DNA of 64,000 nucleotides from positions 18,507,401 through 18,571,400 of the forward strand of contig NC_087082.1 in NCBI RefSeq assembly GCF_026151205.1, in the 5' to 3' direction. Origin of the DNA: Bolinopsis microptera (lineage: Eukaryota > Ctenophora > Tentaculata > Lobata > Bolinopsidae). Positions 1 to 58,718 of the stretch are shown here, one piece after another. Within the stretch, counting starts at the first letter, position 1, and every line of letters begins with the position of its first letter. The notes beneath the pieces were generated by a model that saw only the letters and a program-made list of their open reading frames with translations, ran no database searches and had not been told where the DNA came from. The translations under genes were made by a program, and so were the position numbers.

Positions 1-194
1 CCCTGACCCTGACCCTGACCCTGACCCTGACCCTGACCCTGACCCTGACCCTGACCCTGACCCTGACCCTGACCCTGACCCTGACCCTGACCCTGACCCT
101 GACCCTGACCCTGACCCTGACCCTGACCCTGACCCTGACCCTGACCCTGACCCTGACCCTGACCCTGACCCTGACCCTGACCCTGACCCTGACC
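1..194. repeat. (CCCTGA)n hexanucleotide array
   Basis: Perfect head-to-tail CCCTGA units run from the first base of the window to the border of the first transposon, so the left end of the array lies outside the window. On the minus strand the unit reads TCAGGG, one base away from the animal telomere unit TTAGGG. The C-rich strand runs 5'->3' away from the left edge, which is the orientation a left telomere would have. It may equally be an interstitial microsatellite; the sequence alone cannot decide. Confidence 0.95.
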
Positions 195-12895: not shown

Positions 12896-13123
12896 TTTAA
12901 TATAATCATCAACTCGGGCACCGAGCAAGGAGAAATACAGGGATCTCCGGTCTTTAACTGTTGTCTTAATTACTCTGCACACTTTATGGAACCAGGCTAT
13001 TCCGCTATTATTAAGGCGGGTTTACAGCTTGCATCTCCTTGGGCAGAAGAGAAACATCTCTTCGACACTCATGACTACGATGCTGACATGGCCATGTTAA
13101 ACAAATCAAAAGAGGAGCTGTAG
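12896..13123 (+). other. Open frame of about 75 codons, possible 3' exon
   Basis: The frame reads ...GSPVFNCCLNYSAHFMEPGY through LFDTHDYDADMAMLNKSKEEL, with a stop at 13121-13123. It is not recognised. It could be the last exon of the sushi/Ig gene. An AG at 12928-12929 would keep phase 1, but it lacks a pyrimidine tract, so the connection is weak. The next 500 bases, up to the alcohol dehydrogenase 3' end at 13631, hold nothing recognised. Confidence 0.3.
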
Positions 13124-13630
13124 AAAACCACTGACCTTCTCTGAAAATACAGTGCCTAAAGTGCAGGTCTAAAGATTAATGCAGTGTTTTATAAATTTTT
13201 GACCAAAGACAAATCAGTGAGATCAGTGCTTTATGAAAGCAAAAATATTTGTGTATTTTATGCATAAAATAGTTAATGTTAATCAATGAAACGATAGGTT
13301 TTTCAATGAAACGATAAGTTTTATAATCATAAATAAAATAAGAGCTTAAACCACGAATTAGTTAACTAGAAGTAAACTTGAGGAAATATTCTTAGCTTGT
13401 AGGCTTAAAATTCTAGCAACATTTAAACTTAATCGTTCGATAGCTTAAAATAGTCTGCAACCTTCGAACGATAAGCAATAAGCAACAAGCTTAAAGTTCT
13501 GATAGTCTTTAATCTCTCTTCTACTAACATCATAGTCTCTGCTTCGATATCGATTCTAATAACATCATAGTCTGTGAAATCAAAAGTCGGAATTTAGTTT
13601 GAAACTTGGTTACTCCTTCTTCACATTGAG

Positions 13631-16600
13631 TCAGTTCAAGTCGTTCTCCAGCAGGACTTTCAGTGTTTTGTGACGAGCAGCATTTGAGAAGAGATCGTAA
13701 GCTTGGGAAATCTGGGACATGGGAACCTTGTGACTGATCAATTTGTGTGCTGGTATCTCTTCGTTCAGCACCTGAAAATTGTCGTAAATGACAGTTGTAC
13801 GCAATACGCGGTATAAACGGACTTTCAGCAGTTTAGTTATAAAAACATTAATAACTCAAAAACTTAGCTAGATAGTTAGATAATATGTGAGTGGTGACGG
13901 TTTGTTAAATTTATAATAAAATGTGTAATAGATGAATAGATAAACCACAACTGAGTCAATCAGTAAATATAAGATTATAGTACTGACCTTATGAACGAGG
14001 GAGGGTATTGTATACCCGTATTGTATACCCGTAGTACTGACCTTATGAACGAGGGAGGGTATTGTATACCCGTGTACTGACCTTATGAACGAGGGAGGGT
14101 ATTGTATACCCGTGTACAGACCTTATGAACGAGGGAGGGTATTGTATACCCGTAGTACTAACCTTATGAACGAGGGAGGGTATTGTATACCCGTGGTACT
14201 GACCTTATGAACGAGGGAGGGTATTGTATACCCGTGTACTGACCTTATGAACGAGGGAGGGTATTGTATACCCGTGTACTGACCTTATGAACGAGGGAGG
14301 GTATTGTATACCTGTGTACAGACCTTATGAACGAGGGAGGGTATTGTATACCCGTAGTACTAACCTTATGAACGAGGGAGGGTATTGTATACCCGTGGTA
14401 CTGACCTTATGAACGAGGGAGGGTATTGTATACCCGTGTACTGACCTTATGAACGAGGGAGGGTATTGTATACCCGTGTACTGACCTTATGAACGAGGGA
14501 GGGTATTGTATACCCGTAGTACTGACCTTATGAACGAGGGAGGGTATTGTATACCCGTAGTACTGACCTTATGAACGAGGGAGGGTATTGTATACCCGTG
14601 TACTGACCTTATGAACGAGGGAGGGTATTGTATACCCGTGTACTGACCTTATGAACGAGGGAGGGTATTGTATACCCGTGTACTGACCTTATGAACGAGG
14701 GAGGGTATTGTATACCCGTAGTACTGACCTTATGAACGAGGGAGGGTATTGTATACCCGTGTACTGACCTTATGAACGAGGGAGGGTATTGTATACCCGT
14801 AGTACTGACCTTATGAACGAGGGATGGTATTGTATACCCGTAGTACTGACCTTATGAACGAGGGAGGGTATTGTATACCCGTAGTACTGACCTTATGAAC
14901 GAGGGAGGGTATTGTATACCCGTAGTACTGACCTTATGAACGAGGGAGGGTATTGTATACCCGTGTACTGACCTTATGAACGAGGGAGGGTATTGTATAC
15001 CCGTAGTACTGACCTTATGAACGAGGGAGGGTATTGTATACCCGTAGTACTGACCTTATGAACGAGGGAGGGTATTGTATACCCATGTACTGACCTTATG
15101 AACGAGGGAGGGTATTGTATACCCGTAGTACTGACCTTATGAACGAGGGAGGGTATTGTATACCCGTGTAGTACTGACCTTGTGAACGAGGGAGGGTATT
15201 GTATACCCGTAGTACTGACCTTATGAACGAGGGAGGGTATTGTATACCCATGTACTGACCTTATGAACGAGGGAGTGTATTGTATACCCGTGTACTGACC
15301 TTATGAACGAGGGAGGGTATTGTATACCCGTAGTACTGACCTTATGAACGAGGGAGGGTATTGTATACCCGTAGTACTGACCTTATGAACGAGGGAGGGT
15401 ATTGTATACCCGTAGTACTGACCTTATGAACGAGGGAGGGTATTGTATACCCATGTACTGACCTTATGAACGAGGGAGGGTATTGTATACCCGTAGTACT
15501 GACCTTATGAACGAGGGAGGGTATTGTATACCCGTGTAGTACTGACCTTGTGAACGAGGGAGGGTATTGTATACCCGTAGTACTGACCTTATGAACGAGG
15601 GAGGGTATTGTATACCCATGTACTGACCTTATGAACGAGGGAGTGTATTGTATACCCGTGTACTGACCTTATGAACGAGGGAGGGTATTGTATAACCGTG
15701 TACTGACCTTATGAACGAGGGAGGGTATTGTATACCCGTAGTACTGACCTTATGAACGAGGGAGGGTATTGTATACCCGTAGTACTGACCTTATGAACGA
15801 GGGAGGGTATTGAATACCCGTGTACTGACCTTATGAACGAGGGAGGGTATTGTATACCCGTGTACTGACCTTATGAACGAGGGAGGGATATTGTATACCC
15901 GTGTACTGACCTTATGAACGAGGGAGGGTATTGTATACCCGTGTACTGACCTTATGAACGAGGGAGGGTATTGTATACCCTATATAGTACTGACCTTATG
16001 AACGAGGGAGGGGATTGTATACCCGTGCACTGACCTTATGAACGAGGGAGGGTATTGTATACCCGTGTATAGTACTGACCTTATGAACGAGGGAGGGTAT
16101 TGTATACCCGTGTATAGTACTGACCTTATGAACGAAGGAGGGTATTGTATACCCGTGTATAGTACTGACCTTATGAACGAGGGAGGGTATTGTATACCCG
16201 TAGTACAGACCTTATGAACGAGGGAGGGTATTGTATACCCGTAGTACTGACCTTATGAACGAGGGAGGGGATTGTATACCCGTAGTACTGACCTTATGAA
16301 CGAGGGAGGGTATTGTATACCCGTAGTACTGACCTTATGAACGAGGGAGGGTATTGTATACCCGTGTACTGACCTTATGAACGAGGGAGGGTATTGTATA
16401 CCCGTGTACTGACCTTATGAACGAGGGAGGGTATTGTATACCCGTAGTACTGACCTTATGAACGAGGGAGGGTATTGTATACCCGTGTACTGACCTTATG
16501 AACGAGGGAGGGTATTGTATACCCGTAGTACTGACCTTATGAACGAGGGATGGTATTGTATACCCGTAGTACTGACCTTATGAACGAGGGAGGGTATTGT

Positions 16601-19600
16601 ATACCCGTAGTACTGACCTTATGAACGAGGGAGGGTATTGTATACCCGTAGTACTGACCTTATGAACGAGGGAGGGTATTGTATACCCGTGTACTGACCT
16701 TATGAACGAGGGAGGGTATTGTATACCCGTAGTACTGACCTTATGAACGAGGGAGGGTATTGTATACCCGTAGTACTGACCTTATAAACGAGGGAGGGTA
16801 TTGTATACCCATGTACTGACCTTATGAACGAGGGAGGGTATTGTATACCCGTAGTACTGACCTTATGAACGAGGGAGGGTATTGTATACCCGTGTAGTAC
16901 TGACCTTGTGAACGAGGGAGGGTATTGTATACCCGTAGTACTGACCTTATGAACGAGGGAGGGTATTGTATACCCGTGTACGGACCTTATGAACGAGGGA
17001 GGGTATTGTATACCCGTGTACTGACCTTATGAACGAGGGAGGGTATTGTATACCCGTAGTACTGACCTTATGAACGAGGGATGGTATTGTATACCCGTAG
17101 TACTGACCTTATGAACGAGGGAGGGTATTGTATACCCGTAGTACTGACCTTATGAACGAGGGAGGGTATTGTATTATAGTACTGACCTTATGAACGAGGG
17201 AGGGTATTGTATACCCGTGTACTGACCTTATGAACGAGGGAGGGTATTGTATACCCGTAGTACTGACCTTATGAACGAGGGAGGGTATTGTATACCCGTG
17301 TACTGACCTTATGAACGAGGGAGGGTATTGTATACCCGTAGTACTGACCTTATGAACGAGGGAGGGTATTGTATACCCGTAGTACTGACCTTATGAACGA
17401 GGGAGGGTATTGTATACCCGTATATAGTACTGACCTTATGAACGAGGGAGGGTATTGTATACCCGTGTAGTACTGACCTTATGAACGAGGGAGGGTATTG
17501 TATACCCTATATAGTACTGACCTTATGAACGAGGGAGGGTATTGTATACCCGTGGACGAGTCCAGCGCTGAACCTGAAGTTACGGTGCCACATTCTCTCT
17601 AGGTTGATGGTGGCTGACTTGCCGTGAACTCCCAGCATCGCGATATGACCGCCTGCAATGATAGCTTGTCAAGTTTCCCTGGCTTGTTGCCGGCTGCAGA
17701 ATGAGGTGCAGCAGAATGAGGTGCAGCAGACTGAGGTGCAGCAGACTGAGGTGCAGCAGAATGAGGTGCAACAGAATGAGGTACAACAGAATGAGGTGCA
17801 GCAGAATGAGGTGCAGCAGAAGAGGTACAACAGACTGAGGTGCAGCAGAATGAGGTGCAGCAGAATGAGGTGCAGCAGAATGAGGTGCAGCAGAATGAGG
17901 TGTAGTAGAATGAGGTGCAGCAGAATGAGGTGCAGCAGAATGAGGTGTAGTAGAATGAGGTGCAGCAGAATGAGGTGCAGCAGAATGAGGTACAGCAAAA
18001 TGAGGTGCAGCAGAATGAGGTACAGCAGAATGAGGTGCAGCAGAATGAGGTGCAGCAGAAGAGGTAAAACAGACTGAGGTGCAGCAGAATGAGGTGCAGC
18101 AGAATGAGGTGCAGCAGAATGAGGTGCAGCAGAATGAGGTGTAGTAGAATGAGGTGCAGCAGAATGAGGTGCAGCAGAATGAGGTGCAGCAGAATGAGGT
18201 GCAGCAGAATGAGGTGCAGCAGAAGAGGTAAAACAGACTGAGGTGCAGCAAAATGAGGTGCAGCAGAATGAGGTGTAGTAGAATGAGGTGCAGCAGAATG
18301 AGGTGCAGCAGAATGAGGTGCAGCAGTATGAGGTGCAGCAGAATAAGGTGCAGCAGACTGAGGTGCAGCAGACTGAGGTGCAGCAGAATGAGGTGCAGCA
18401 AAATGAGGTGCAGCAGAATGAGGTGCAGCAGAATGAGGTGCAGCAGAAGAGGTACAACAGACTAAGGTGCAGCAGAATGAGGTGCAGCAGAATGAGGTGC
18501 AGCAGAATGAAGTGCAGCAGAATGAGGTGTAGTAGAATGAGGTGCAGCAGAATGAGGTGCAGCAGATTGAGGTACAGCAGAATGAGGTGCAGCAGAATGA
18601 GGTGCAGCAGAATGAGGTACAGCAGAATGAGGTGCAGCAGAATGAGGTGCAGCAGAATGAGGTACAACAGACTGTGGTGCAGCAGAATGAGGTGCAGCAG
18701 AATGAGGTGCAGCAGAATGAGGTGCAGCAGAATGAGGTGTAGTAGAATGAGGTGCAGCAGAATGAGGTGCAGCAGAATGAGGTGTAGTAGAATGAGGTGC
18801 AGCAGAATGAGGTGTAGTAGAATGAGGTGCAGCAGAATGAGGTGCAGCAGAATGAGGTACAGCAGAATGAGGTGCAGCATAATGAGGTACATTAGAATGA
18901 GGTGCAGCAGAATGAGGTGCAGCAGAATGAGGTGCAGCAGAATGAGGTGCAGCAGAATGAGGTGCAGCAGAATGAGATGCAGCAGAATGAGGTGCAGCAG
19001 AATGAGGTGCAGCAGAAGAGGTACAACAGACTGAGGTGCAGCAGAATGAGGTGTAGCAGAATGAGGTGCAGCAGAATGAGGTGCAGCAGAATGAGGTACA
19101 GCAGAATGAGGTGCAGCAGAATGAGGTGCAGCAGAATGAGGTACAGCAGAATGAGGTGCAGCAGAATGAGGTGCAGCAGAATGAGGTGCAGCAGAATGAG
19201 ATGCAGCAGAATGAGGTGCAGCAGAATGAGGTGCAGCAGAAGAGGTACAACAGACTGAGGTGCAGCAGAATGAGGTGCAGCAGAATGAGGTGCAGCAGAA
19301 TGAGGTGCAGCAGAATGAGATGCAGCAGAATGAGGTGCAGCAGAATGAGGTGCAGCAGAAGAGGTACAACAGACTGAGGTGCAGCAGAATGAGGTGTAGC
19401 AGAATGAGGTGCAGCAGAATGAGGTGCAGCAGAATGTGGTACAGCAGAATGAGGTGCAGCAGAATGAGGTGCAGCAGAATGAGGTACAGCAGAATGAGGT
19501 GCAGCAGAATGAGGTGCAGCAGAATGAGGTGCAGCAGAATGAGATGCAGCAGAATGAGGTGTAGCAGAATGAGGTGCAGCAGAAGAGGTACAACAGACTG

Positions 19601-22600
19601 AGGTGCAGCAGAATGAGGTGTAGCAGAATGAGGTGCAGCAGAATGAGGTGCAGCAGAATGAGGTACAGCAGAATGAGGTGCAGCAGAATGAGGTGCAGCA
19701 GAATGAGATGCAGCAGAATGAGGTGCAGCAGAATGAGATGCAGCAGAATGAGGTGCAGCAGAATGAGGTGCAGCAGAATGAGGTACAGCAAAATGAGGTG
19801 CAGCAGAATGAGGTGCAGCAGAATGAGGTACAGCAGAATGAGGTGCAGCAGAATGAGGTGCAGCAGAAGAGGTACAACAGACTGAGGTGCAGCAGAATGA
19901 GGTGCAGCAGAATGAGGTGCAGCAGAATGAGGTGCAGCAGAATGAGGTGTAGTAGAATGAGGTGCAGCAGAATGAGGTGCAGCAGAATGAGGTGCAGCAG
20001 ACTGAGGTGCAGCAGACTGAGGTGCAGCAGACTGAGGTGCAGCAGAATGAGGTGCAGCAGAATGAGGTGCAGCAGAATGAGGTGCAGCAGAATGAGGTGC
20101 AGCAGAAGAGGTACAACAGACTGAGGTGCAGCAGAATGAGGTGCAGCAGAATGAGGTGCAGCAGAATGAGGTGCAGCAGAATGAGGTGTAGTAGAATGAG
20201 GTGCAGCAGAATGAGGTGCAGCAGAATGAGGTGCAGCAGAATGAGGTGCAGCAGAATGAGGTGCAGCAGAATGAGGTGCAGCGAAATACCTGCTTTAACG
20301 ATGTCCTGGCAGATGTACCAGCCGACAGGTACTCCTATTGCTTCCACCACCAGGTCGACCCCGTGTCCGTGTGTCAGAGTCATCACTTCTTCCACCGCTG
20401 TTCCTGCACTGTTGTCTATCGTGTGTAGGGGAACAGTGGTTAGTCCATCTGTTGTGTTCTTCAGCTCCACACTTCAGGGTTGAGAGGATTAAAATAGAGA
20501 CAGATCTGGAAGAACACACCCTTGGGCGTAGCTCGGGTAGTGTTTCATGTCTAATTTCTAGATATAAGCAAAAAGGGTACTCATTATCACATCAACTACC
20601 GTGCACGCTTACTTATATTATTAATACTTTGATATCGTGAAGGACCAAAGCTCACCATGTGTCCAGTCTATGATTGTTGGTATCAATAACGAAGAGCTCC
20701 CCAGGTTGATAGGACCCTGCGGTGATAAGAGACGCCAGACCAACCGGACCTACTCCCACTATAGCTATACTCATTCCAGGCTTGATAGCTCCGTCCAGCA
20801 GACCTACTTCTAATCCCGTTGGGAGGATATCCGAGCACATGACTATAGCATCTTCTATGTCAGTATCCCACACAGCCTCCGGGATGATCTGTGGAGAGAA
20901 GGGGTTATAAACGGATTACAGGGAAAACTGGGTTAACAAGAAGTACAAAAATATACAAAAATATACAAGAAATACAAGAAATACAGGAAAGAATAAACAC
21001 GTGGAATACAACTACAAGGAAAACAAGGGAGACTCCCCACGTCAGAGCTAATCGACAGTAAAAAACTTAGAGCTGAAAAAGTAAAATGTCCATTAAACCT
21101 GTGTACTGAAATCTGCATGAGGTACCCGAGCATGAGTTCCTTGCATCCCGTCAATAGTATTACCTAAGAAACACGGTGGTAATCTAATTTACTTTTTGGC
21201 TAGAATTTAGATGACAAACGAAAGGTTGATGGAAGGTAACCGATTGTATTTCTTTTTTGAAAAATATATTGTTTTCATCACCATCACTCCAGAGCTCTGA
21301 AATTATTGGAAACCTGTTATTATAAAGAAGTACTTAATTTACGGGTCGCCCCTGTAAAATGAGCTCATTAGATAATGATTAGTGATTACTCCTTCAGAAA
21401 GTACTCCGTCTAGTAGAATGAAGTTTACAGATACTTTAGAACTTCCCAACACGATGTTACCATGACAACACACACAAAACCGTTAATTATTTTCCACTTT
21501 CTTGTGACCTGCAATGTGAGTTTACGGTTTAATATGTGAGGAATTTAGAACAATTTGATAAGAAAGAGATATCATAAATATTACTGACAATGAGTTGGAT
21601 ACCTTACGAGACATATTTTTTTTTAATCCCCAAATACTAGATTCAATTTGGGGTACGAAATGCTATGGTTTTCGGCAGGCAAAAAATCCCTATTTTCGTT
21701 TTCAAATCATTTAGGTCACCGGAATTATGTCAAATACAAATATGTCTCGTACGGTACTTCGTAAATTTTTTTGGAAAAAATGTTTATCAGAAACACTACG
21801 AACCAGTATCTGCAAATAAGTGAAATGTGAGGGATTTTTAGGATAAAATACCAAATTTGGCAATCGTTACTTACAACAGTACTTACAACCCTTTTATAAT
21901 TTTGAAAGTGTTGAAAAGTCGGCTCCTGAGATGATGCAGAAAGAAGAGCAAAACTTTAAACAAAATTACTAAGAGTGACGAAGAGGTTGTAATTTTCAAC
22001 ATAATCCCAGGAGCCGTCTTGAACTGACAGTGACAACACTACAATTACCCAGCTGCCAGCCCCCATCCACACAGTGACCATGGAACTGAATTCTACAGTT
22101 GTCACATACGCCACATTGGGTAGTCGTGTTCACCAGGACTCTTTCGCCAACTCTTCGCTTTTGAACTTTTGAACCTTGAATAAAAAGTAGTAGAAGAATA
22201 AAATGATGATTTAAAAAATTGTTTATCAACGTTGAGAAGTGTTTATCACTGAATTAACAAGGAAATATTGGTACTCTGTCCGTTACCCTGACAACTCACC
22301 AACTTGTACGATCTCTCCTATACCCTCGTGTCCAAGTCTCGTTCCTGGTTCACAAGATGACACGTTCCCCTTCAGAATATGGAGATCTGTTCCGCAAATT
22401 GTTGTTTTCAGTACCTGAATAACAAAAAGGAAATAATTAATTATTAGCAGTCAAATAAACATTTCACTATCTGATAGTGATACCAAATCCCCTTTTAGAA
22501 AATATTTCAAATCCCCGACACGACAGTTTATCCCCTACTCTGAAATGTCACCCAGTTCAAATATCTTCACATAGTTTCATCGCCCTATATATAAACAACA

Positions 22601-23147
22601 TTACCTTAATGATGACATCAGTGGGATGCAGTATCTCCGGCATGGGAAGACCAGTCTCAAAACAGAGAGGATGTCCTGGACCCTTGTAAACGACGTGAGA
22701 GCAGGAGTTGTCATGGTGATGAGTAGGAGTTGTGAGAGCAGGAGTTGTGAGAGAGTTGTCCCAAACAGGTTGGATAACTTCTGGTTGAAGTTCTGGCATC
22801 ATGGGGCTCCTGACGTCGGGTGTCATGGTGATTCGTCTGAAGCTGCGGGAGAAGGTTTTGAAGAGAAATATTGATTATATTAATTGTAAATTTGATCCTA
22901 ATTACTTATTGTAGAATTTATCGTAATGATATCTCTTACATTTTAAAATTAATTTTGAATAATTCATGGCCTGATCTGAATGAATATCTAACCTTCCACG
23001 TGTTACGCTTGGATCCACTTCAATCTGAGCAGAAGAAGATCGAACTGCGCTTGAGAACAGTCTCACTTGAGCGGCGGGAGTTTTCGTCAAGGCCTTTACA
23101 AATTGACGGATTGCTCCCAACTTAATCGTGTTCTTGCTGATTATCAT
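13631..23147 (-). CDS. Zinc-dependent alcohol dehydrogenase, mitochondrial (MDR family), 9 exons
   Basis: Exons in transcript order are 23147-22993, 22842-22605, 22414-22300, 22174-22049, 21163-21099, 20888-20656, 20471-20290, 17652-17522 and 13771-13631. All introns are GT-AG and all phases agree, giving 461 residues. The N-terminus (MIISKNTIKLGAIRQFVKAL, basic with Ser and no acids) looks like a mitochondrial presequence. Catalytic zinc residues are in ICGTDLH and GHEGIG. The structural zinc lobe is CGVCDNC...GHC. The nucleotide-binding loop is VGVGPVGL, followed by FVIDTN. The protein should oxidise an alcohol or reduce an aldehyde with NAD(P); the substrate cannot be told. The NTIDG... 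segment and overall order match bacterial-type zinc ADHs. Residues about 55-105 (exon 2) contain a His-rich loop. Introns 7 and 8 are occupied by minisatellites, which may affect splicing. Confidence 0.9.
13983..17550. repeat. 40/41-bp minisatellite derived from the exon 8 / intron 8 junction
   Basis: About 88 units alternate between 40 bp (...CCCGTGTAC) and 41 bp (...CCCGTAGTAC). On the minus strand each unit reads GGGTATACAATACCCTCC, CTCGTTCATAAG, then GTCAGTAC. The first part encodes GYTIPSLVHK, the last ten residues of exon 8, and GTCAGT is its 5' splice site. The unit facing exon 8 (17522-17550) is the functional exon end. The unit farthest from it (about 13983) borders unique intron sequence. 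Variants include GAGGGATGG, GTGAACGAG and insertions of TATA between units. Confidence 0.97.
17698..20281. repeat. 15-bp minisatellite filling intron 7
   Basis: About 170 units of GTGCAGCAGAATGAG (minus strand CTCATTCTGCTGCAC). A variant block GCAGAAGAGGTACAACAGACT recurs about ten times at irregular intervals of 125-570 bases, showing higher-order duplication. The array starts within 10 bases of the exon 7 donor and ends about 45 bases before the exon 8 acceptor. Because 15 is a multiple of 3 and the unit lacks stops in most frames, long repetitive frames exist on both strands; they are not genes. Confidence 0.97.
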
Positions 23148-23149
23148 CT

Positions 23150-24650
23150 CTATTTGTTTCCTAAGAATGGATTGGTTAGAACGTTATGAAAGACGATACC
23201 CGCCTATAAATGTCAGGATTAACCGAAACAGTCGAGTAAAGTAAGGGGTGTATGGGGTACAAAAATGAGGTTAATAACAAAAGGTCAACAACCACAAAGG
23301 ATTAGGAAGAAGAACTAGTAGTCTAAAATGACGTGTACAATCCTGAAAGGAGAGTACAACACGAGAGAGACTATATATACTTTATTATGATACTACTAGT
23401 TCTACGCGGTACTTAAAGTTATTATATAAATGCTGTGCAAACAGAGTAGAAACTTTATTACTACTACTATTACATTAGTACTACTACTACTAGTAGTACT
23501 ACGCGGTACTTAATATATAAATGCTGTGCAAGCAAAGTAGAAAAAAGATGATAATTTTAGCCGTGATTTAACTCACGTTTCCTCAAATATTATTTCTAAT
23601 TTCAAGTTGAGTAGAAACGAAAGATTTATCTTTTACTCAACTGTCGTCAACATCAAATTACAGTTAAACTGGCTCACTAAACTGAATCAGAATGTGCAGC
23701 TCTTATCGAAAATATCGATAAATACATTTTTCCGAATTCCGTGAAAAATAAAATGATTTTTATATGCATTGGCATTTGGTTAGTTAACCTAAATATTTGT
23801 CACACCGTTAAATATCTAAGCTGATTGTGGGATAATTTAAGATTTAAACCGTATTACTAGAGAAAAATAACTTTAAGCTCTCGAACTGTTTTTCGAAAAC
23901 TTAAAATGGAACTAACCTCTTACCATGCCATCGGTGTTTTAAGCAGGAGCTCTAAGTTTAACTTGTTTATTTTTCAAGTTATTTTTCTAATTCTAGTATT
24001 TGGAAACTTGATTCAAGAACAAGTACGTGTTTTAAATAAGATTAGGACCATTAATTTCTAATCTAATTCGATAAAGTTTTTATCAGTAATTCGATGGTAA
24101 TTCTATATTCTGGCTCTACTCTACATCCGGATATTGTAGTTCACAAATGTTTAATTCCTGTTTAATTCCACGTACAATAAGACGTCTTGTGATGAAGACC
24201 TGATTTTAGGCCAACCGCCCACTTTAGTTCCGTCGCTTTGCCTAATTGGACTGAGTGATGTCAGATGTGACCCGTACTTTTAACATGAGCTGATAAGGAT
24301 AACAAGTTTTAGTAAGCACAATTCTCCCGAATTGGACCACGAGTTTCATAGACTCTGTAGGAACACAGTACCGAAGAAGTGCACCACGAGTTTTATAAGT
24401 TGCTAAGAAACAGAATCCACCATATACATACATCAAATACTTTCAGCCTGGCCAACTTTGGTTAAACCAGTATAAAAGGTTCAGACAGGTTGTTCGCCAG
24501 AATAAGACCTGACTCACCATCTTCAGCATCCGGATTGTGTTTTAAATTGTGGATACATCACTCAAAAACAGAAACATTAAAGTTGTTTAGTTAAACAGGA
24601 CCCAACACAATCTAAGTACAGTGCTGACTTCCTCCTTCAATTCTGTTCAC
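23150..24650. other. Upstream region of the alcohol dehydrogenase, no gene seen
   Basis: AT-rich sequence that presumably includes the promoter and 5' UTR. A short imperfect duplication (CTACGCGGTACTTAA and following bases at about 23400 and 23500) includes TAC/TAG triplet runs. I see no coding exon with splice support. Confidence 0.5.
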
Positions 24651-24664
24651 GGAGTGACGAAACT

Positions 24665-26243
24665 GACGATATAACAGCCCCTCTACAGCCACAATACAGC
24701 CAAAATACAGCCACAATACAGCCCCTATACGGCCACAATACAGCCACAATACAGCCCAAATAACGCCACAATACAGCCACAATACAGCCCCTATACGGCC
24801 ACAATACAGCCCCAATAACGCCACAATACAGCCACAATACATCCCCTATACGGCCACAATAACGCCACAATACAGCCACAATAAAACCATATACGGCCAC
24901 AATACAGCCCCTATACGGCCACAATACAGCCACAATAACGCCACAATACAACCACAATACAGCCCTTATACGGCCACAATACAGCCACAATACAGCCACA
25001 ATAAAACCATATACGGCCACAATACAGCCCCTATACGGCCACAATACAGCCACAATACAACCACAATACGGCCACAATACGGCCACAATACAGCCACAAT
25101 AACGCCACAAGACAACCACAATACAGCCCCTGTACAGCCCCTATACGGCCACAATACATCCACAATACAGCCACAATACAGTCACAATACAGCCACAATA
25201 TAGTCACAATACAGCCACAATACAGCCACAATACAGCCACAATACAGCCCCTATACAGCCACAATACAGCCTCTATACAGCCCCTATACAGCCACAATAC
25301 AGCCACAATACAGCCACGATACAGCCACAATACAGCCACAATACAGCCCCTATACAGTATACAGCCCCAATAACGCCACAATACAGCCACAATACAGCCA
25401 CAATACAGCCCCTATACAGCCACAATACAGCCACAATACAGCCACAATACAGCCACAATACAGCCACAATAAGGCCACATTACAGCCATAATACAGCCAC
25501 AATACAGCTGCATAATACAGCCACGATACAGCCACTATACAACTACAATACAGCCCCTATACAGCCACATTACAGCCCCTATACAGCCCCTATACAGCCA
25601 CAATACAGCCACAATACAACCACAATACGGCCACAATACGGCCACAATACAGCCACAATAACGCCACAATACAACCACAATACAGCCCCTGTACAGCCCC
25701 TATACGGCCACAATACATCCACAATACAGCCACAATACAGTCACAATACAGCCACAATATAGTCACAATACAGCCACAATACAGCCACAATACAGCCACA
25801 ATACAGCCCCTATACAGCCACAATACAGCCTCTATACAGCCCCTATACAGCCACAATACAGCCACAATACAGCCACGATACAGCCACAATACAGCCACAA
25901 TACAGCCCCTATACAGTATACAGCCCCAATAACGCCACAATACAGCCACAATACAGCCACAATACAGCCCCTATACAGCCACAATACAGCCACAATACAG
26001 CCACAATACAGCCACAATACAGCCACAATAAGGCCAAATTACAGCCATAATACAGCCACAATACAGCTGCATAATACAGCCACGATACAGCCACTATACA
26101 ACTACAATACAGCCCCTATACAGCCACATTACAGCCCCTATACAGCCCCTATACAGCCACAATACAGCCACAATACAGCCACAATACAGCCACAATACAG
26201 CCACGATACAGCCACAATGTAACTACAATACAGCCACGATACA
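24665..26243. repeat. 12-bp minisatellite with a 559-bp higher-order duplication
   Basis: Units of CCACAATACAGC and the variants CCCCTATACAGC, CCCCTATACGGC and CCACAATAACGC. A segment at about 25030-25588 is repeated at about 25589-26147 with nearly all the same variants in the same order (offset 559), so a block duplication followed the unit expansion. Minus-strand frames rich in Ala-Val-Leu-Trp-Leu-Tyr-Cys-Gly follow from the 12-bp period and are not called as genes. Confidence 0.95.
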
Positions 26244-26304
26244 GTACGTGCATGCGTGACCCGCTCGCCCAAATTTAAAAAAAATTCATGTTGAAAGGCC
26301 TTAC

Positions 26305-26385
26305 CTGGGGACCTCAGGCTATTATGTTCATAAACATATCGAATAGAGATTAGGCGGAATGACAGGCTGAGCGCGGCCCAGTAAG
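26305..26385 (-). repeat. Dispersed repeat shared with 781-858
   Basis: Reverse complement of the sequence in the left part of the first transposon (the GCGCGGCCCAG / GCGGCGCTCAG end and the AATAGAGATTAGGC core). It lies just after the 12-bp array. Confidence 0.6.
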
Positions 26386-26589
26386 AAAGGCCCTGAAGGT
26401 TTAAAAGTAAAACTGTTCGGTGTATTTTTGCTCATGATTCCCAATCGTAAATCAGCCTGGCCACAGAAGTGATAAGTTAAAAGTCATGACGTAAGTTGAA
26501 AATGCTTCCCTCTGGAAAGTAATTATGGGCAAAAAACTGTTTCGGTCACGTGACAGGCTAATAAAACATCAATTTTATTTAATAATAAT

Positions 26590-26900
26590 TGTTAACAATA
26601 ACGGCTCGGGTAAGGGTTACAGTTGTGGTCGACCGTTGACCATTGTTAATGATCTGGCCCGGCGCGCGCTACTTCGTAGCACTTGCCATTGTAGCGCGAT
26701 GCACTACTGGGTCGCGCCGCGCATCAAATAATTCTTCTCGCAACCACACCTTCGGTAGATCGGCGAGATGCACCACTGTGCCTCACCGAGCTGCGAAGGA
26801 TTGACATCGTGAATCAACACTTGCCATTTCGAGAAGAAAGCGGCGCGTGCTTCTTCGAAGAAATTTAGACGAGTAACATCCGTCAAGGTCGACCGTCGAC
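26590..26900. repeat. GC-rich dispersed repeat block
   Basis: Bounded by GGTCGACCGTTGAC (26628) and GGTCGACCGTCGAC (26887). It contains GGCGCGCGCTACTTCGTAGC, shared with 37669-37705. GCGAGAAG/TAGATCGGCG is shared in reverse complement with 38105-38165. CTTCGAAGAAATTTAGACG is shared with 41072-41095. It therefore combines pieces that are separated by the reverse transcriptase at 38-41 kb and may be a non-autonomous or rearranged relative. Degenerate TTAGGG-like words follow at 26905-26965. Confidence 0.65.
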
Positions 26901-27023
26901 TGGTAGGTTAGGGTTTTGGATTATGGATAGTTTTGGGGTTACGGTTAGGGATATTAAGGTTGAGATTACACAGGGGGGTCTGAAACCAGGTTTTCGATCA
27001 AATGCTGCCATTTGAAGTCAGAC

Positions 27024-48867: not shown

Positions 48868-48868
<1 letters not shown>

Positions 48869-48897
<29 letters not shown>
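48869..48897 (+). repeat. Poly-G tract
   Basis: About 29 G in a row just downstream of the last exon of the copy 1 small gene. The matching place in copy 2 (near 53680) has no G-run, so it arose after the duplication or is an assembly artefact. Confidence 0.8.
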
Positions 48898-58664: not shown

Positions 58665-58708
<44 letters not shown>

Positions 58709-58718
58709 GGGGGGGGGG
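58665..58718 (+). repeat. Long poly-G tract
   Basis: More than 40 G interrupted by one T, followed by CCGGGGC. Frames of poly-Gly or poly-Pro across it are meaningless. It may be an assembly or sequencing artefact, or a true G-quadruplex-forming tract. Confidence 0.8.

Follow-up and report, generated by a model that had tools for sequence, protein, structure and literature searches.

An array of 87 exon-end donor sites in a ctenophore alcohol dehydrogenase-like gene, probably a mirage-type minisatellite

Among the genes with tandem repeats at an exon border, lancelet Adh3 encodes a class III alcohol dehydrogenase (ADH), and human 6-16/IFI6 holds a minisatellite with a 12-nucleotide (nt) unit in about 26 copies. 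In this study, we analysed a 64,000-nt stretch of the ctenophore Bolinopsis microptera (contig NC_087082.1, positions 18,507,401 to 18,571,400; hereafter the window, whose own numbering is used for positions), in which intron 8 of a zinc ADH-like gene holds a long array made of the end of exon 8 and its 5' splice site (donor). Canestro et al. 2002 (cited in PMC3087553) gave the name mirages to tandem repeats that cross exon-intron borders, on the basis of lancelet Adh3, and passages of PMC3087553 describe units of 10-72 bp at Adh3, AG/GT in many units, length instability that includes somatic change, and regular splicing. The lancelet loci named as mirages are Branchiostoma Adh3, the globins BflGb6 and BflGb9, troponin C and, with imperfect repeats, PGBD5; 6 and 3 units are reported at BflGb6 (PMC3087553, PMC3902484).

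Repeats with related properties are reported elsewhere. The human 6-16/IFI6 minisatellite with multiple donors goes back to 1995, and two of its downstream repeat units are described as isoform donors (PMC4526556); internal repeats at human exon-intron boundaries have also been described (PMC2812944). The tandem genomic duplication model of intron gain is presented with Rogers, ATP2A1 and the 24-bp AGGT arrays of fission yeast (PMC4974935), and VNTR6-1 in intron 6 of TERT, a 38-bp unit about 3.5 kb upstream of exon 7, is reported to affect splicing through a G-quadruplex (PMC11830802). An initial annotation of the window presented its array as unheard of, a view that the mirages (PMC3087553, PMC3902484) and the human multi-donor minisatellite, both already in print, do not allow: the array is not categorically new, boundary-spanning mirages being already known from lancelets. 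The openly licensed repeat and splicing literature yielded no ctenophore case in a search that was not aimed at ctenophores, so that a printed case is possible, and the word minisatellite is absent from the main text of the Mnemiopsis genome paper.

The exon 8 boundary and its tandem copies

The ADH-like gene lies on the minus strand at 23147-13631. Its nine coding exons, joined by hand from GT/AG borders and the reading frame (exon A is the least certain), give 461 residues with no internal stop. The joined protein contains ADH_N and ADH_zinc_N, both above the Pfam cut-offs, and its best solved-chain match is 5yln_A, a zinc-containing alcohol dehydrogenase (E 2.4e-93), with an alignment that crosses the exon 8-exon 9 junction without a break; class III ADH chains match much more weakly (E 5.5e-14). 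Exon 8 (17652-17522) ends with codons for GYTIPSLVHK followed by GTCAGT (...CATAAG/GTCAGT), with 17521 as the first intron base, exactly as had been annotated. Because the 5yln_A alignment runs through the junction and a second copy of the gene, described below, has the same exon end and donor, this is very probably, as judged from the DNA, a genuine exon end. Skipping of exon 8 would shift the frame, the exon being 131 nt long.

Tandem Repeats Finder describes the array as a repeat of period 41 with 86.4 copies and 95% matches (14018-17553), and a direct count gives 87 GT donors, the first at 17521 and the last at 13987, numbered here in transcript order. The annotated tandem of about 88 near-identical donors is therefore right in its arrangement and similarity (positions -6 to +8 are identical in 76 of 87), while the exact number is 87; the direct count also bears out that all are in transcript orientation. 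Beyond the real boundary there are 86 full units of 25 sequence types, each made of the last 30 nt of exon 8 followed by a piece of intron, in most cases 10-15 nt. All but two are 40-45 nt long (one has 38 nt and one 54), and the two most frequent types, of 41 and 40 nt, account for 29 and 19 units. The exon 8 end of the window is identical to the common unit, AAG/GT is kept at 87/87 donors, and 79 of the 86 units lie within an edit distance of 1 from five common forms. Length varies largely in the short intronic spacer, which reads GTCAGTAC-ACGGG, GTCAGTACTA-CGGG or longer TATA-containing forms. These unit borders, which fall exactly at the exon end and donor, support the proposal that the minisatellite derives from an exon/intron boundary, and a unit that spans such a boundary, with its AG/GT signals kept, is what defines a mirage.

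The order of the unit types carries a record of growth. Strings of 11 and 8 unit types recur within the array, while in 500 shuffles the longest recurring string had 7 units (mean, 4.1); the array therefore grew by block copying, the kind of concerted turnover associated with mirages. The last unit leads into an ordinary intron, so intron 8 is older than the array. In total intron 8 has 3,750 nt, made up of the array (17521-13988) and a final 216 nt that start with the last donor copy. The donor hexamer shows 0.0116 changes per site and the exon-derived part 0.0109; at such nearly equal rates, selection on the array donors was rejected, and there is no sign of extra constraint on them. The features on which the text relies are as follows.

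23147-22993, minus strand: exon 1 (A), hand-joined
22842-22605, minus strand: exon 2 (B), hand-joined
22414-22300, minus strand: exon 3 (C), hand-joined
22174-22049, minus strand: exon 4 (D), hand-joined
21163-21099, minus strand: exon 5 (E), hand-joined
20888-20656, minus strand: exon 6 (F), hand-joined
20471-20290, minus strand: exon 7 (G), hand-joined
17696-20282, minus strand: second minisatellite, 15-nt unit x173, filling nearly all of intron 7; unit without recognised exon sequence
17652-17522, minus strand: exon 8 (H), 131 nt; the repeat unit takes its exonic part from the final 30 nt (17522-17551)
17516-17521, minus strand: first 5' splice site GTCAGT, predicted to be productive; the sole donor of 87 that gives the full open reading frame in silico
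13982-17521, minus strand: array from donor 1 to the last donor, with 86 further exon-end and donor units within intron 8; from donor count and repeat finding
13982-13987, minus strand: last donor, GTCAGT, with the 3' splice site 216 nt away, leading into non-repeated intron
13772-13987, minus strand: non-repeated rest of intron 8 (GTCAGTAC...TTTTCAG, 216 nt), interpreted as the pre-amplification intron
13631-13771, minus strand: exon 9 (I), last coding exon with stop codon; from frame, protein search and alignment

The unit pattern was searched with up to 3 mismatches in the searchable 264.65-Mb genome, and 99 places were found, 86 in the window array and 13 in the array of the second gene copy; the reversed pattern gave 0 places in the same search. 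A chance origin of the repeat pattern is excluded by the array itself and by this search with its empty control. A genome-wide satellite or transposon was discarded as well, the pattern being confined to the two gene copies. A known structured RNA family was likewise set aside, an Rfam search of 13000-27000 giving 0 matches at the gathering score.

Other repeats lie in and around the gene. Two large arrays flank exon 8, in introns 7 and 8. The one in intron 7 starts after the first 7 nt of the intron, is 73% pyrimidine on the transcript strand and contains 141 copies of CTCAT, which we take to be a branch-point-like motif. Upstream of the gene is an 11-nt minisatellite (x142, 24684-26244). Left of the gene, at 13007-13184, is a fragment of an interspersed repeat, whose 40 listed matches comprise, besides itself, 39 copies at 81-84% identity. 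The left edge of the window (1-194) is a perfect (CCCTGA)x32, in the interior of a 20.8-Mb contig. Runs of G occur at 48868-48897 (30) and 58665-58718 (54, 96% matches), and another is found on the transcript strand in a stretch of the second copy (L002); such long runs may have been produced by sequencing or assembly.

A second copy of the gene

The initial annotation overlooked a second copy of the gene with a shorter array. It lies on the same strand near C11:18832282-18832937, about 308 kb away when measured between the two copies of exon 8. Exons A-H have the same lengths in both genes and align with 35 mismatches in 1,245 nt, and the second copy has GT donors and AG acceptors wherever the window has them (the segment before exon A has no acceptor). 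The differences comprise 25 synonymous and 10 nonsynonymous changes, an uncorrected ratio of nonsynonymous to synonymous differences per site (pN/pS) of 0.127, or 0.072 from codon 71 on; by this comparison, coding exons A-H are intact and look selected. A search with the protein, in which 20 candidates were scored, returned 16 places, namely 8 in this gene, 7 in the second copy and 1 distant place on C9 with 24% identity. A Pfam family search of the genome listed 14 places, none of them at the ADH-like gene, whose domain is split over exons.

The window copy has the longer version of each of the three arrays common to both copies. In intron 7 it has 173 units against 15 in the second copy, and in the upstream 11-nt array 142 against 45. 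A loose match finds 17 junction-like sites in the exon-end array of the second copy, and one of them lacks GT; the exon there reads ACGATACCC and the array units mostly ACAATACCC, so the exon end differs from the units. Edit distances are 0-1 for units 1-9 and 2, 3, 51, 4, 3, 3 and 4 for the indel-rich units 10-16, and the homology between the copies ends inside this array. From there, homology blocks of at least 150 bp continue through about 46 kb (window 16816-63968) at 87-99% identity per block (C11:18831500-18841400, L001, to L006); their order is largely conserved, but there are large indels and a few displaced blocks. For a probe taken 116 kb from the array, further matches on C11 lie in the stretch that corresponds to it; a probe from the second stretch finds the window side in return, and one from upstream of the gene has a single second match at 96%. 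By contrast, no second place on C11 was found for sequence lying 0.7-2.3 kb to the left of the second copy. The second copy may be a haplotig that stayed in the assembly and in which noisy reads closed a gap, or else a true segmental duplication; as a gene copy it may be a truncated haplotig or a paralogue. Should the two be alleles, array length would seem to vary, with the reservation that the second array may be cut short.

Predicted messages and the choice among donors

Messages were built in silico by joining each of the 87 donors to exon 9. Donor 1 alone (1 of 87) gave the full frame of 461 residues, in agreement with the annotated claim for the donor at 17521, and the other 86 all ended in VHK-VSTI-stop. 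They share this end because unit 1, a 44-nt variant, holds TATATAG. The read-through stop had been placed at TCA TAA within about a dozen codons; the first stop past donor 1 is in fact TAG after four codons (GTC AGT ACT ATA TAG), and TCA TAA would come after 12 codons in pure 40-nt units and after 26 in pure 41-nt units. The distance from the stop to the last junction is 29 nt for donor 2, 72 nt for donor 3 and 3,519 nt for donor 87.

We consider it quite probable that the array is a mirage-type minisatellite that arose from a boundary-spanning duplication, is intronic and tolerated, and leaves donor 1 in use. A short segment running from the last bases of exon 8 into intron 8 would have been duplicated in tandem, and slippage or unequal exchange in a minisatellite-rich genome may then have amplified it to 86 units. 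Donor 1 would make the protein, most likely because it defines a normal 131-nt exon together with the upstream acceptor, and the other 86 donors would be decoys that give one truncated frame when joined to exon 9. The sequence itself shows the identity of the units, their block-wise expansion, the intact coding frame, the smaller number of nonsynonymous than silent differences in exons A-H and the full frame with donor 1 only; which donor is used in RNA, how the units multiplied and that the array is tolerated rather than functional are what we infer. The lancelet mirages, reported without disturbed splicing (PMC3087553, PMC3902484), are consistent with this explanation.

Several observations weigh against it. 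RNA folding ranks donor 1 only 25th or 12th of 87 in accessibility under two settings, and by these ranks the idea that RNA structure singles it out was rejected. In human IFI6, downstream repeat donors are reported to be used (PMC4526556). The protein search found no exon 9 beside the second copy or elsewhere, and exon 9 with its flank had no second full-length match among the 40 of 346 candidates that were scored. Five of the gene's eight introns have 125-210 nt, and the residual intron of 216 nt is close to that size; intron definition would therefore favour donor 87, and exon definition donor 1, so the last donor could be the one used. The repeat background of the genome points both ways. 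Long arrays are common in it, which favours the explanation: one random 8-kb stretch was drawn from each of 13 large contigs (97.5% of 264.65 Mb), and in these 104 kb tandem repeats of period at least 7 cover 14.5%, with 9 separate arrays of at least 300 bp. AGGTNAG occurs in the consensus unit of 0 of these 9, a sample too small for a frequency estimate, and in 0 of the window's 4 other arrays; such arrays are therefore not shown to be frequent. One sampled array (L027) looks splice-site-like by eye, with no convincing adjacent coding exon in the list of open reading frames, no homology search being made there. In a genome so rich in minisatellites, we infer, chance alone should place some array seeds on exon borders.

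An alternative that we regard as unlikely is stepwise or corrective splicing. The initial annotation saw the sites as donors, which the GT at 87/87 bears out; it missed the acceptor-like unit ends, so the sites may not be donors only. With AG and GT adjoined at 87/87 sites, each unit end (CCCTCCCTCGTTCATAAG followed by GTCAGT) would be a composite 3'/5' site like a recursive-splicing ratchet point, for which a pyrimidine tract and AG directly before a donor are characteristic. The unit end has 14 pyrimidines among 17 positions (-20 to -4) and reaches 2.96 in a model built from the 8 acceptors of the gene, as high as or lower than the score of 7 among 155 background AGs. Scores of the real acceptors range over 0.47-5.96 in-sample and -1.15 to 4.35 leave-one-out, and two of the eight end in AAG. 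The array donor score likewise falls within the range of the gene's other 7 donors, and for donors and acceptors alike the training set is very small (8 sites in the acceptor model). The next unit offers a donor 38-54 nt downstream, and fly ratchet points are described as preceding a cryptic exon with its own donor (PMC8605326). Since every unit is such a composite, any donor-to-unit-end splice would be scarless, dropping whole units and restoring the exon end and donor, and after a wrong splice from donor k to exon 9 the unit end beside exon 9 could still join donor 1 to give the correct mRNA. In its fullest form, quite doubtful in our view, the array would be a self-correcting track in which splicing might start at any of the 87 donors and converge on the correct mRNA through scarless unit-to-unit splices; if so, the gene would pay little for a very large set of decoy donors in an array whose length can vary. 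However, the composite arises automatically when such an exon end is duplicated and needs no function, the array sites are without extra constraint, and the intron has 3.75 kb, whereas fly ratchet points are reported predominantly in long introns (PMC8605326).

Frequent choice of the donor nearest the 3' splice site (13987, leaving the 216-nt intron) under intron definition appears highly improbable. Much of the transcript would then be array-bearing nonsense and a longer array would lower the output; this is the form that the annotated idea of array length setting mRNA levels would take, an idea for which the analysis gave no support. The size of the residual intron and the nearly uniform donor sequence over the array speak for this reading, but it is hard to fit with the mostly silent differences in exons A-H between the copies. 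The predicted accessibility of the last donor is, moreover, the minimum of the 87 at printed precision under both folding settings, and lancelet Adh and troponin C mirages are reported without aberrant mRNAs (PMC3902484). In folds of 2, 3 and 6 consensus units, each unit formed a 6-bp hairpin (GGGTAT/ATACCC), with AGTACT-AGTACT pairing across units; the last donor also lies within a possible local hairpin at 13960-13986, TCAGTA with TACTGA, paired by eye. That the array length or the second copy was produced by the assembly of long noisy reads is scarcely credible. The indel-rich last units of the second copy, after which homology ends as it would at a contig end or closed gap, suggest such a source, and the B. 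microptera assembly is described as made with wtdbg, gap closing and haplotig purging (PMC10232365), but the near-uniform units of the window array (79 of 86 within one edit of a common form), the non-repeated sequence on both its sides and the same unit array in the second copy argue against it. A tolerated mirage-type minisatellite with donor 1 in use is thus the reading that we prefer.

Comparison with described systems

The locus shares with the lancelet mirages a host gene for an alcohol dehydrogenase. It differs in that the host is a ctenophore, in its 87 sites against the 6 and 3 units reported at BflGb6, and in its protein, which is far nearer to 5yln_A than to the class III chains. 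Like the human IFI6 minisatellite, it has repeat units that provide donors at an exon end; unlike the isoform donors described there, the 86 downstream donors all give one truncated frame in silico. As in the tandem-duplication model of intron gain, a short AGGT segment that joins donor, AG and pyrimidine tract has been duplicated (PMC4974935), but the array makes no new intron position, because the duplicated segment spans the donor of an existing intron and the last unit enters the ordinary 216-nt intron.

Recursive-splicing ratchet points resemble the units in having an acceptor-like AG that adjoins a donor GT, with another donor shortly downstream; those of flies are described predominantly in long introns, (PMC8605326), whereas the 87 sites here lie within 3.5 kb and stem from duplication. 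TERT VNTR6-1 is also an intronic minisatellite of similar unit length, with a reported splicing effect, but the cited passages do not describe it as splice-site-derived (PMC11830802). With its near-equal donors, the locus offers a natural experiment, in which exon definition would lead to donor 1, intron definition to donor 87 and recursive splicing to unit-to-unit junctions. Taken together with the lancelet cases, the array appears to extend mirages to a comb jelly, a very distant animal lineage, at a copy number far above that reported at BflGb6.

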